64,000 nucleotides of DNA from contig NZ_CP142396.1 of NCBI RefSeq assembly GCF_035934735.1, positions 1,798,001 to 1,862,000 on the forward strand, read 5' to 3'. A program made the position numbers and the translations under genes. The DNA comes from Sedimentibacter sp. MB31-C6. GTDB lineage: Bacteria > Bacillota > Clostridia > Tissierellales > Sedimentibacteraceae. Under the pieces are notes generated by a model. It saw only the letters and a program-made list of their open reading frames with translations, made no database searches and was not told the origin of the DNA. Positions 2,327 through 63,334 of the stretch are shown here, piece by piece; position 1 is the first letter of the stretch, and every line of letters starts with the position of its first letter.

Positions 2327-3154
2327 ATGAGTTGGATAGGCGGAAAGAAGGCTTTAAGGGAGTTAATAGTATCAGTATTCCCCCTCTATTATGAACGATA
2401 TATAGAAGTGTTTGGAGGCGGAGGCTGGGTTTTATTCCATAAACCTCCTGGCAATGATTTTGAAGTATATAACGATTTTAATGGACTCTTGACTAATCTC
2501 TATCGCTGTGTAAGGGAAAAACCTGATGAGTTAATAGAGGCACTGCATTTTGTGTTAAATTCTAGGGAGGATTTTGACATAGTAAAGAATGCACTTGCAA
2601 GGGATAGTCCTGCAAGTGATGTAGAAAGAGCCTCATATTTTTATCAGCTGATTCGCTACAGCTATGCATCAGGACTTACAAGCTATGGCAGTCAGCCTCA
2701 TGATATGTGGGTTAATTTCCCCTTAATTGAACAGGCACATAGAAGACTTAGTAAAGTAGTTATTGAAAATAAGGATTTTGAAAAGCTGATAAGGCAGTAT
2801 GATCGCCCTGTCAGCTTTTTCTATGCAGATCCACCCTATTATGAGACAGAAAAATACTATAAGAATGTCGGTGAAGATGGATTCAAAGAAGAGGATCATA
2901 TAAGGCTTCGGGACACCTTAATGGATATAGAAGGGAAGTTCCTGCTTTCCTATAATGACTGTGAGTTTATAAGAAATCTATATGATGCACCAAATATTCA
3001 GATTGAAAGCTTTACCCGTATCAATAATATTAAACAGCGTTATGACAATGGTGCCCAGTTTCCAGAAATACTTATATCAAATTATGATATGCAGGAAAGG
3101 AAGGAAAACAATCCTTCACAAATAAATATATTTGAAATGAACAATGAACTTTAA
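2327..3154 (+). CDS. D12-class DNA adenine N6-methyltransferase
   Basis: This 275-residue enzyme transfers a methyl group from S-adenosylmethionine to the N6 of adenine in DNA. The D12 (Dam-like) hallmarks are clear: WIGGKKALRELI at the N-terminus, the SAM-binding EVFGGGGWVLF around residue 28, and the catalytic ADPPYYE near residue 168. Its length fits the family. In a conjugative element it would mark the DNA against host restriction or copy the host pattern. The last residues, SQINIFEMNNEL, contain a QxxIF pentapeptide like a beta-clamp binding motif. No cognate nuclease lies beside it, so it is probably an orphan methylase. The target site cannot be read from sequence. Confidence 0.9.
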   Translation: MSWIGGKKALRELIVSVFPLYYERYIEVFGGGGWVLFHKPPGNDFEVYNDFNGLLTNLYRCVREKPDELIEALHFVLNSREDFDIVKNALARDSPASDVERASYFYQLIRYSYASGLTSYGSQPHDMWVNFPLIEQAHRRLSKVVIENKDFEKLIRQYDRPVSFFYADPPYYETEKYYKNVGEDGFKEEDHIRLRDTLMDIEGKFLLSYNDCEFIRNLYDAPNIQIESFTRINNIKQRYDNGAQFPEILISNYDMQERKENNPSQINIFEMNNEL

Positions 3155-21943: not shown

Positions 21944-22297
21944 ATGAAACTGATATATGTTGCATCTCCATATAAGGGAGATATTGAAAAAAATATAGAA
22001 TATGCTAAAGAGGCATGCCGTTATGTATTAAATCAAGGCAATGCCTTTTTTTGTCCCCATCTGCTTTATCCTCAGATTTTAGATGATAATAATCCAGAAG
22101 AAAGAAGATTAGGAATTAATATAGGAAAAGAATTTTTAACAAAATGTGATGAACTATGGGCATTTGGAGGACATATTTCTCAAGGAATGTTTGAAGAAAT
22201 TGAGTTTGCTAGAAAGATAGGAATTCCTGTAAAAAGAATTATACAGCTTGATTTTGAAATAGAAGAACAGGAACTCTTAAAATTAGGGATGTATTGA
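21944..22297 (+). CDS. DUF4406 / nucleoside 2-deoxyribosyltransferase-like protein
   Basis: This 117-residue protein starts YVASPYKGD, continues with NIEYAKEACRYVL and contains DELWAFGGHISQGMFEEIEFA. That matches the DUF4406 branch of the nucleoside 2-deoxyribosyltransferase-like fold. The glycine loop near the N-terminus and the SQGMFEEI segment would bind a nucleotide. Such genes are common in phages and ICEs next to DNA methyltransferases, possibly for nucleotide processing or ADP-ribose metabolism. The stop overlaps the start of the C5 methyltransferase gene (TGATG), so the two are coupled. Confidence 0.75.
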   Translation: MKLIYVASPYKGDIEKNIEYAKEACRYVLNQGNAFFCPHLLYPQILDDNNPEERRLGINIGKEFLTKCDELWAFGGHISQGMFEEIEFARKIGIPVKRIIQLDFEIEEQELLKLGMY

Positions 22298-22968
22298 TGA
22301 TTACATTGGGAAGTCTTTTCGATGGGATAGGAGGATTTCCCCTTGCTGCTGTCCATAATGGAATTACTCCTATATGGGCAAGTGAAATAGAGTCCTTTCC
22401 TATTGAAGTGACTAAAATAAGATTTCCTGACATGCTCCATGTGGGAGATGTTACAAAGCTAAAAGGAGAAGAATTACCTCCTGTAGATATCATAACAGGA
22501 GGTTCACCATGTCAAGACTTATCGGTTGCAGGTACAAGAGCAGGACTTGCTGGTGAACGTTCAGGTTTATTTATGGATCAAATAAGAATAACAAAAGAAA
22601 TGAGGTATGCAGATGCAAAAAGAGGAAAGGCAAATCACCTTATCAGACCTCGATACTTCGTTTGGGAAAATGTCCCTGGAGCATTCTCAAGTGCAGGAGG
22701 AGAAGACTTCAAAGCGGTACTTGAAGAAACCGCAAGAATTGCAGACAGCACCATATTTATACCTAGACCTCCGGGAGGGGTATGGAAATCTGCTGGGTGC
22801 ATATTGGGATACGAATTCACTATTGCTTGGAGAGTTCTCGATGCTCAATACTGGGGTGTCCCCCAAAGACGTAAAAGAATCTTTCTTGTCGCAGATTTTG
22901 GAGGACACACCGCACCCAAAATACTATTTGAGCAAGACAGCATGTTTAGGGATACTCAGGAGAGCTAA
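22297..22968 (+). CDS. C5-cytosine DNA methyltransferase, catalytic part (motifs I-VIII)
   Basis: These 223 residues hold the catalytic half of a DNA C5-methyltransferase: motif I SLFDGIGGFPLA, motif IV GGSPCQDLSVAG with the nucleophilic cysteine, motif VI WENVPGAF and motif VIII WGVPQRRKRIFLVADF. The frame stops before any target-recognition domain or motifs IX-X, which lie in the next, overlapping frame. The arrangement resembles the two-subunit enzyme M.AquI, split at the same place. Other explanations are programmed frameshifting or a recent frameshift. An insert before motif VI (DAKRGKANHLIRP) is where the second frame begins. Confidence 0.85.
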   Translation: MITLGSLFDGIGGFPLAAVHNGITPIWASEIESFPIEVTKIRFPDMLHVGDVTKLKGEELPPVDIITGGSPCQDLSVAGTRAGLAGERSGLFMDQIRITKEMRYADAKRGKANHLIRPRYFVWENVPGAFSSAGGEDFKAVLEETARIADSTIFIPRPPGGVWKSAGCILGYEFTIAWRVLDAQYWGVPQRRKRIFLVADFGGHTAPKILFEQDSMFRDTQES

Positions 22969-24037
22969 AGTAAGAGGCAAGGAACTTCCTAAACAATTAA
23001 GAATAGCTTTAGAAATTCAAGGCGAAGTGGAAGGTGCAGAACGAGAATCTAATGATAATATAATTACTAAATATAAGGCATACCATATTAATCAACGCAA
23101 TGAAGGGATTGATTTAAATGGAATTTCAGGAGCCTTGATGGCAACCCAGAATATGCAGATGCAGACTTTTGTTACAGAACCTATGCTGTGTCTGAATGAT
23201 CAGGGTGGTGATCGAATGGACATAACAGAGAATATCACCTCTACACTAAGAGCCAGCATGGGAGGGAATCAGCCCATAGTAATAGCATCCCAGCAAGATG
23301 GTTCAGAAATATGTAATGGCGCTTACCCAAACATTCCATCAGCAGCAGGAACAAGTGGCAACAATCAACCTATTCTATTCGATAATCACGGTAAAGACTG
23401 CAGATACAATGGTCCTCTTAAAGTAGCACCAACAATAGCTACAACCTATGGAACAGGCGGCAATAATGTACCGCTGGTATCAAAACCGATTAATTCAGAC
23501 AGTTATTGTATTGCAGGAAATACCATAGACAGACAGGATCATAATGGTGGAAATGGATGTGGGTTTCAAGAAAATATCAGCTATACTCTTACTACAAGTG
23601 ATATACATGCTATCTGCCATCCTGAATCTAAAACTTATCAAAATACAGTAGGAGCATTGTGTGGAAGTGATGAAAAAGGCATTGGTAACCAATATGTGAG
23701 CCAAGATAAATGTATTGTGGATAATGGGAAAATGATGTTTGGACAGTCGGAATTTGCTAATTACAAGGAAGGATGTGCAACACTTCGAGCAGAAGGTGGG
23801 GATAACGGAGGAGGAAGTGAAAACCTTGTAACCACAAAGAATCTTGTACGAAGATTAACACCATTGGAATGTGAAAGACTCCAAGGATTTCCTGATGGAT
23901 GGACTAAAATAAAAAAGTCATCTGATAGTGCAAGATATAAAGCATTAGGCAATAGTGTAGCAATTCCTTGTGTAGATTATATTATGCGAGGGATTGCTTA
24001 TTTTATTAGAGAATTCAAGGAAGAAACGGAGGAATAA
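22613..24037 (+). CDS. C5 methyltransferase, target-recognition part with motifs IX-X, overprinted N-terminus
   Basis: This frame (+1 relative to the catalytic part) overlaps it by about 356 bases and then continues alone. The ATG at 22613 has GAGGT six bases upstream, so separate translation is plausible. The first 119 residues are read out of frame through the catalytic gene and contain LSQILEDTPHPKYYLSKTAC. The middle holds a variable recognition region with repeated motifs (GTGGNNVPL, ALMATQ, TSTLRASMGGN). The end supplies motif IX RRLTPLECERLQGFPDGW and motif X ALGNSVAIPC. Only together do the two frames give a full enzyme. Confidence 0.75.
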   Translation: MQKEERQITLSDLDTSFGKMSLEHSQVQEEKTSKRYLKKPQELQTAPYLYLDLREGYGNLLGAYWDTNSLLLGEFSMLNTGVSPKDVKESFLSQILEDTPHPKYYLSKTACLGILRRAKVRGKELPKQLRIALEIQGEVEGAERESNDNIITKYKAYHINQRNEGIDLNGISGALMATQNMQMQTFVTEPMLCLNDQGGDRMDITENITSTLRASMGGNQPIVIASQQDGSEICNGAYPNIPSAAGTSGNNQPILFDNHGKDCRYNGPLKVAPTIATTYGTGGNNVPLVSKPINSDSYCIAGNTIDRQDHNGGNGCGFQENISYTLTTSDIHAICHPESKTYQNTVGALCGSDEKGIGNQYVSQDKCIVDNGKMMFGQSEFANYKEGCATLRAEGGDNGGGSENLVTTKNLVRRLTPLECERLQGFPDGWTKIKKSSDSARYKALGNSVAIPCVDYIMRGIAYFIREFKEETEE

Positions 24038-61928: not shown

Positions 61929-62279
61929 ATGAATTCAGTAGGTGCGTATCTTAGAGGACAACGAGTTAAGCTTTCTTTAAGTTTAAACGATGTATATGAG
62001 CAAACAGGGATAACAAGCACCCGTTTAAGCAGGATAGAACTAGACCAAATAAATGAACCTTCTCCAGAGGTATTAAAGAAGCTGGCAGAATTATATCAAA
62101 TTGATCTGATTTATTTATATAAGAGGGCAGGATATTTGGATGATACAGACGTTTTACCGCAATTGAAGCCTTTTGAAAACTATGAGGTATTAAACGATGA
62201 AGAACGTAATTTTGTTCAGCAAGCTATTGATATTTTAGCTAAAAATCATTTGTCAGCAAATAGGGAGGTCATATTATGA
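61929..62279 (+). CDS. XRE-family regulator of the restriction-modification locus
   Basis: The ATG at 61929 has GGAGGT upstream, giving 116 residues. The N-terminal 65 residues are a Cro/XRE helix-turn-helix: LRGQRVKLSLSLNDVYEQTG, then ITSTRLSRIELDQINEPSPE. An acidic helical tail follows. Its stop overlaps the methyltransferase start by four bases. It is a good candidate for a controller protein timing expression of the methylase and nuclease. Confidence 0.85.
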   Translation: MNSVGAYLRGQRVKLSLSLNDVYEQTGITSTRLSRIELDQINEPSPEVLKKLAELYQIDLIYLYKRAGYLDDTDVLPQLKPFENYEVLNDEERNFVQQAIDILAKNHLSANREVIL

Positions 62280-63334
62280 AATATAGATTAGGGGAGTTGT
62301 TCTGCGGACCGGGAGGCATAGCGTATGGCGCGATGGAGGCTCGAAGTTCAGACGGTAAATATTCAATTATCCATGAATGGGCAAATGATTATGATAAAGA
62401 TACCTGCGCTACATATAGGTATAATATCTGCAATGATAATCCGGAAACTGTATACCATGAAGATATTAGAAAATTAGACATGCACAAATTATCTCCTATA
62501 GATGCATTGGCGTTTGGATTTCCATGCAATGATTTTAGCATTGTAGGTGAACAGAAAGGTATGGATGGAGTATATGGTCCGCTTTATTCATATGGAGTTG
62601 AAGCACTTAAAATTTTCAAGCCGGACTGGTTTCTGGCAGAAAATGTAGGCGGATTACGAAATGCTAATGATGGTAATGCGTTTACTAAAATTTTATCGGA
62701 ACTTAGGGAAGCGGGTTATGTTGTTACCCCTCATTTATATAAATTTGAGGAATATGGAATTCCTCAAGCGCGACATCGTATAATAATTATTGGAATAAGA
62801 AATGATTTAAGTGAAAATACAATTTTTAGGGTACCTTCACCTGAACCATATAAAGGAATTGATAATACATGCAGAACGGCAATTGAAAAGCCGCCAATTC
62901 CTAAAGATGCATTTAACAATGAATTGACAAGGCAATCTGAGACTGTTATAGAAAGACTGAAACATATTAAACCTGGTCAGAATGCGTTCACAGCAGATAT
63001 ACCTTCCGAGCTGCAGCTTAATGTACGGGGAGCTAAAATGAGTCAAATTTATAAAAGACTTGAACCTGACAAACCTTCATATACTGTTACTGGAAGCGGA
63101 GGCGGGGGAACTCATATTTATCATTGGGAAGAAAATAGAGCCTTAACTAATCGAGAAAGGGCTCGGCTCCAGACTTTCCCTGATACTTTTAAGTTTATGG
63201 GTTCTAAAGAAAGTGTGCGTAAGCAGATTGGGATGGCCGTTCCTCGTGAGGGCGCAAGGATAATATTTGAAGCCATTTTAAATAGCTTTGCTGGTATTGA
63301 TTATGAGAGTGTGCCTGCAAACATCAACGAATAG
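62276..63334 (+). CDS. C5-cytosine DNA methyltransferase (type II modification enzyme)
   Basis: This 352-residue enzyme has motif I GELFCGPGGIAYGAM, motif IV FGFPCNDFSIVG (catalytic cysteine, with PCN instead of the usual PCQ), motif VI AENVGGL and motif VIII GIPQARHRIIIIGI. A recognition region follows, then RLEPDKPSYTVTGSGGGG, LTNRERARLQTFPDTF and motif X KQIGMAVP. It is complete and unrelated to the split methylase at 22.3 kb. It should protect the site cut by the nuclease that follows. Confidence 0.93.
   Translation: MKYRLGELFCGPGGIAYGAMEARSSDGKYSIIHEWANDYDKDTCATYRYNICNDNPETVYHEDIRKLDMHKLSPIDALAFGFPCNDFSIVGEQKGMDGVYGPLYSYGVEALKIFKPDWFLAENVGGLRNANDGNAFTKILSELREAGYVVTPHLYKFEEYGIPQARHRIIIIGIRNDLSENTIFRVPSPEPYKGIDNTCRTAIEKPPIPKDAFNNELTRQSETVIERLKHIKPGQNAFTADIPSELQLNVRGAKMSQIYKRLEPDKPSYTVTGSGGGGTHIYHWEENRALTNRERARLQTFPDTFKFMGSKESVRKQIGMAVPREGARIIFEAILNSFAGIDYESVPANINE

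Follow-up and report, generated by a model that had tools for sequence, protein, structure and literature searches.

Why should one DNA methyltransferase be spread over two reading frames that share hundreds of bases? The locus lies in the window, the whole 64,000-nt stretch of Sedimentibacter sp. MB31-C6 DNA analysed here. The earlier note, made from the letters of the sequence, had placed motifs I–VIII of a C5-cytosine methyltransferase in one frame, and the recognition region with motifs IX–X in the +1 frame. Profile matching agreed: ORF1 matched positions 3–129 of PF00145 (E 2e-35) and ORF2 positions 239–321 (E 5e-12), both over the cut-off. The pair is thus a C5-methyltransferase by its PF00145 motifs, carried by two ORFs with the break after motif VIII and before motifs IX–X. 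The PCQ, ENV and QRRKR motifs are all in ORF1, which ends directly past the linker that follows motif VIII. The claimed overlap of ~356 bases also stood when counted from the ORF2 start given in the table; a second in-frame ATG lies upstream, at 22607, and 22613 appears the more likely start of the two. We use the name F2 for the overlapped part of ORF2.

Features of the split methyltransferase locus (window coordinates)
Feature	Start	End	Strand	Description
Upstream gene	21944	22297	+	DUF7768, deoxyribosyltransferase-like; stop overlaps ORF1 start (TGATG)
ORF1	22297	22968	+	ATG 22297, TAA 22966-22968; 223 aa; catalytic half, C5-cytosine methyltransferase motifs I–VIII
ORF2 Shine-Dalgarno and start	22602	22615	+	GAGG 22602-22605, 7 nt before ATG 22613; inside ORF1
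ORF2	22613	24037	+	+1 frame; ~474 aa; F2 domain fused to variable region and motifs IX–X
Dual-coding overlap of ORF1 and ORF2	22613	22968	+	356 bp counted from ATG 22613
F2 core element LSQILEDTPHPKYYLSKTACLGILRRAKVRGKELPKQLRIAL	22883	23020	+	Homologous to in-frame post-motif-VIII segment of ordinary C5-methyltransferases
Motif IX RRLTPLECERLQGFPDGW	23849	23905	+	In ORF2; from PF00145 match and sequence
Motif X ALGNSVAIPCVDYI	23942	23985	+	In ORF2; from PF00145 match and sequence

The upstream DUF7768 gene and ORF1 are probably translationally coupled through the TGATG. Genes for TrbL, T2SSE, a MobL relaxase and a VirD4-type coupling protein make the neighbourhood of ORF1 and ORF2 that of a conjugative element. 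Elsewhere the window holds a complete, ordinary C5-methyltransferase (62276-63334) and a D12-class N6-adenine methyltransferase (2327-3154).

A sequencing error or single indel was ruled out, because two copies in the same genome and one from another species agree. The second copy (L002, G000:C1:1729836-1731257), ~90 kb away, is 91% identical to the window in ORF1 and 88–89% in ORF2; L099, from a second species of the genus, has a 90% identical ORF2. Both frames are open in each. ORF1 ends at the same codon in all three copies, with TAA or TAG depending on the copy; these differing stops, and the deletion needed to join the C-terminal half, also speak against a single indel. Between the window and L002, dN/dS was 0.05 for ORF1 upstream of the overlap (dS 0.59) and 0.10 for the C-terminal half of ORF2 (dS 0.58), while within the overlap frame-1 dS was as low as 0.09. 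Selection thus acts on both halves, and where they overlap both frames are constrained. L002 also has TrbL and deoxyribosyltransferase-like genes upstream, suggesting two related conjugative elements in this genome. The 223-codon length of ORF1 recurs in L002, L099 and L100; in the last, from the same genus (G017), ORF1 and F2 are intact and the methyltransferase C-terminus of ORF2 has been lost to unrelated sequence.

The earlier note had itself argued against a simple error, and had named what would overturn that: most homologues with one continuous frame, and this one differing by a single indel. The first half turned out true in a way that changes its meaning. In most homologues the methyltransferase is indeed continuous, yet the second frame is kept as well, as an ORF nested within it. 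The second half was not borne out: compared with its nested relatives in the same genus (L121 in G008 and L120 in G021, each a continuous enzyme with nested F2), the window has a frame-1 stop plus a deletion or rearrangement that joins the nested ORF to the C-terminal half. An overlap of this kind is thus not peculiar to the window gene, nested F2 being common in homologues.

Phages, plasmids, viral contigs and genomes all gave F2 matches in the +1 frame of a C5-methyltransferase. Among the first loci gathered, 241 of 247 matches lay inside a C5-methyltransferase at +1. The other six were the de-overlapped L005 and L027/L231, a truncated locus, a long methyltransferase outside profile coverage (L245) and a stretch of a conventional enzyme matched in its own frame (L149). 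Usually the methyltransferase frame is unbroken, and the F2 nested in it is an ORF of ~130–160 codons that stops shortly past the conserved end of F2. A free-standing F2 family was ruled out among these 247 matches, none of which was a free-standing gene. To keep F2 itself from steering the choice of loci, we retrieved four sets through the methyltransferase frame alone. F2 was present in 79/80, 41/42 and 79/80 loci of three sets (the first count omits L256, a de-overlapped copy with a weak match; 37 matches in the last are partial); the fourth set, made up mostly of another methyltransferase clade and taken as negative control, had it in only 13/80. The hosts named in our tree are Pseudomonadota, Myxococcota, Chloroflexota, Verrucomicrobiota, Nitrospinota and Bacillota, and phages and prophages from at least six bacterial phyla have conserved the F2 frame. 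Phage records from Corynebacterium and Mycobacterium contain it too, as does a P1-like Dmt (SJ46).

Existing annotation appears to have passed F2 by. It was not listed as a separate gene in any annotated phage or plasmid record examined, and no Pfam or NCBIfam family, HNH included, matched any of 90 F2 members. The family phrog_16143, labelled DNA methyltransferase, matched the F2 frame in 45 of these 90, so its label probably comes from overlapping or chimeric gene calls. An earlier scan of viral contigs with ORF2 alone gave no matches, its patterns being too specific.

Several F2-bearing methyltransferases look circularly permuted (L017, L019, L052, L056, L064, L075, L078, L133); their frame begins around motif IV, and the segment bearing motif I (SLFDGIGGFPL...WASEIEEFPIAVTK) is C-terminal, after motif X. 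In L007, L056 and L078 (L030 is similar), the methyltransferase N-terminal part and the F2 core share one frame, with motif VIII and the C-terminal half in another; this layout reflects either a further rearrangement or sequencing indels.

Is the second frame a gene, or an accident of the first? We made 40 synonymous shuffles of the methyltransferase frame for each of 170 non-redundant nested homologues and scored the +1 frame with an F2 HMM. Real F2 frames averaged 136 bits against 36 bits for shuffles, and the real frame scored above the best of its 40 shuffles in all 170 loci. Only 12% of shuffles left the +1 frame open, ruling out chance openness. Synonymous variation in the methyltransferase frame dropped where F2 starts: synonymous codon identity among homologues was 0.353 upstream of F2 (0.326 shuffled), 0.543 in the overlap (0.327 shuffled) and 0.72–0.85 at the overlap's end. 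Nucleotide variability had the periodicity of methyltransferase codons in the N-terminal part of F2, and that of F2 codons in its core. The overprinting of catalytic sequence that had been read from the one locus is thus genuine by shuffles and synonymous suppression, and the test for purifying selection in homologues that the earlier note had recommended finds the overlap constrained in both frames.

The internal ATG and ribosome-binding site first noticed in the window have conserved counterparts in nested homologues. A Shine-Dalgarno match of at least 4 nt stands at a fitting distance before the start codon in 137 of 170 loci. Where the methyltransferase has the EMR..NG block, its Asn is AAT in 36/36 loci (45% gene-wide) and its Arg AGG in 36/36 (11% gene-wide), choices demanded by the ATG and the Shine-Dalgarno of F2. 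The putative F2 start codon and Shine-Dalgarno are, then, fixed through codon choice.

In one locus the two frames have come apart. In L027, which shares its element neighbourhood, including the upstream TrbL gene, with the window, two consecutive genes encode first the methyltransferase half and then F2 plus C-terminal half, and overlap by 4 nt. The second gene opens with the retained F2, and stops have arisen in the former +1 frame of the methyltransferase half, precisely where the core used to lie. Together with the shuffles and the codon periodicity, this rules out F2 conservation as a by-product of the methyltransferase frame. Purifying selection acts in both frames and F2 has initiation signals of its own; at the level of sequence comparison, these results establish F2 as an old, widespread and genuine overprinted gene.

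What, then, does F2 encode? Its core has the consensus LSQILE..P.KYYLSxKACxGILRRA. A full-length profile of conventional C5-methyltransferases aligned best at this core (score 37, E 6.5e-5; reversed control, score 11), the homology covering ~28 aligned residues. A set of in-frame segments picked by regular expression gave 94% probability but is circular, and we relied on the full-length profile instead. In ordinary C5-methyltransferases, including the solved structures PDB 3lx6 and 3me5, the homologous segment follows motif VIII in frame and in the same chain, unlike F2. The segment was found in the methyltransferase frame of 0/146 nested enzymes and 27/48 conventional ones; the latter count is partly circular, since the training set of the segment HMM shares members with the 48, and the former is not. 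These comparisons show the predicted F2 core to be homologous to the post-motif-VIII segment, and the putative LSQILE...KYYLS peptide to be a displaced piece of C5-methyltransferase. Core homology and the absence of the segment from all 146 nested methyltransferase frames indicate that it has moved to the other frame in F2-bearing enzymes. We read the result as a double overprint, in which F2 was laid over the catalytic frame upstream and, at the core, the methyltransferase linker was laid over F2.

The rest of F2 is less easily placed. Its N-terminal ~85 residues are far less conserved than the core and have no confident AlphaFold fold. Mean pLDDT was 62 for F2 and 50 for ORF2, the confident parts being the two C-terminal core helices of F2 (pLDDT 81–95) and the motif IX–X end of ORF2. 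Near the N-terminus, 39 of 170 F2 sequences have a QLxLF-like motif, which resembles the beta-clamp-binding motif; ~0.8 was expected from synonymous shuffles, and none occurred elsewhere in F2. The window has a weak version, QITLSDL, within 22613-22650. This hints that a subset of F2 may bind the sliding clamp, which we treat as a lead.

Since F2-bearing enzymes lack the segment in their methyltransferase frame, its most likely source is F2, acting as a separate subunit. The explanation we consider probable is that F2 is a methyltransferase subunit acting in trans in most phages and, in the window, fused to the recognition half of a two-chain enzyme. An ancient F2 would lie at +1 over the catalytic half of a phage- or ICE-type C5-methyltransferase. 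Translation of F2 would begin from a Shine-Dalgarno and start codon of its own, as the conserved signals suggest; its core would be the segment that opens the variable region in ordinary C5-methyltransferases, and in nested phages F2 would return this displaced segment in trans as a separate subunit. In the window lineage, a frame-1 stop and a deletion after F2 would have joined F2 to the recognition half; ORF1 (motifs I–VIII) and ORF2 (F2, variable region, motifs IX–X) would then be translated separately and assemble into a two-chain methyltransferase. We infer translation of F2 and ORF2, assembly and catalysis (methylation) from the sequences. As nested enzymes retain both motif IX and motif X in frame 1, they may be active without F2.

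Fusions like that of the window, with motif X in ORF2, were found in L236, L193 and L137. On the tree the label changes to split or de-overlapped at least five times, always among nested enzymes, so that this state would have arisen at least five times from nested ancestors. By themselves the fusions are no proof of shared function, as any suitable frame change at this place yields a fusion of F2 and the C-terminal half.

F2 could instead be a real overprinted protein with an unrelated phage function, such as host take-over, replication or anti-defence, for which the methyltransferase gene is simply a home. The N-terminal part, unlike methyltransferase, would fit this, as would the clamp-type motif. 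On the other hand, a free-standing F2 was never found among the 247 matches, the core is homologous to just the segment missing in frame from nested enzymes, and de-overlapped and fused F2 copies remain joined to the methyltransferase C-terminal half; we judge such a function unlikely. Decay is a poorer account still, and quite improbable to us: the window gene would be a pseudogene of a nested enzyme, its ORFs no longer forming an active methyltransferase. While the split state is derived, and L100 shows an ORF2 whose C-terminus is unrelated sequence, the low dN/dS in both halves at dS ~0.6, the intact catalytic motifs and the similar splits that keep motif X in ORF2 (L236, L193, L137) argue against decay. 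Programmed +1 frameshifting into one full-length enzyme, offered by the earlier note as an alternative to separate polypeptides, suits the frame order and split position, and the joined order would be motifs I–VIII, core segment, variable region and IX–X, but we hold it very improbable: F2 has its own conserved start signals; nested homologues, whose frame 1 continues open over hundreds of codons, would be truncated by a shift; shifting ahead of the core would cost the ~20 residues by which motif VIII is separated from the segment in conventional enzymes; in L027 the two parts are adjacent genes; and no shift site was seen on inspection by eye.

Two separately translated chains, the reading we prefer, have precedents, and two-chain C5-methyltransferases as such are already known. 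In M.EcoHK31I, the small subunit is encoded in an alternate frame within the large-subunit gene. This naturally split enzyme, recognizing YGGCCR, is reported to consist of two polypeptides, of which the small subunit has motif IX and the large one motifs I–VIII, the variable region and motif X (PMC3404938, PMC3439449). F2 differs in lacking motifs IX and X, and ORF2 of the window in holding both along with the variable region. F2 as a motif IX subunit of the M.EcoHK31I type was ruled out, since nested enzymes with a complete frame (e.g. L004) have a motif IX of their own there, along with motif X. M.AquI is likewise a two-polypeptide C5-methyltransferase (PMC3404938): the earlier note had likened the split position to that of M.AquI, and in both the break falls between motif VIII and motifs IX–X. 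The larger subunit of M.AquI, however, also has part of the variable region, whereas in the window the gene for the second chain overlaps the first by 356 bp and opens with an overprinted domain of which hundreds of phage loci have nested homologues. It is by analogy with M.AquI and M.EcoHK31I (PMC3404938) that we propose assembly of two chains in the window.

A second protein out of frame inside a phage DNA methylase is known from mycobacteriophages, where the ShiLan-type HNH endonuclease is a mobile insertion of patchy distribution (PMC11855218). F2, by contrast, overlies conserved catalytic motifs and is kept across phyla, and an out-of-frame HNH insertion of the ShiLan kind was ruled out for it, with no HNH match among the 90 members. 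A search of the literature for a nested or overprinted gene family in C5-methyltransferases returned nothing relevant except ShiLan.

F2 therefore appears to be an overlooked conserved second protein inside a well-known family of DNA-modifying enzymes. To a wider proposition we give slightly better than even weight: that a conserved overprinted family in phages, prophages and ICEs encodes a displaced piece of methyltransferase, giving two interacting subunits; that some members may be tethered to the clamp through QLxLF; and that several lineages have resolved the overlap to a fused two-chain enzyme. Few overprinted genes can be compared, as F2 can, in the nested, the fused and the de-overlapped state, which makes the fate of overlapping genes directly testable. 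The results suggest that many phage C5-methyltransferases, P1-like Dmt included, have an unrecognised subunit, which would bear on the expression of these enzymes from recoded genes.
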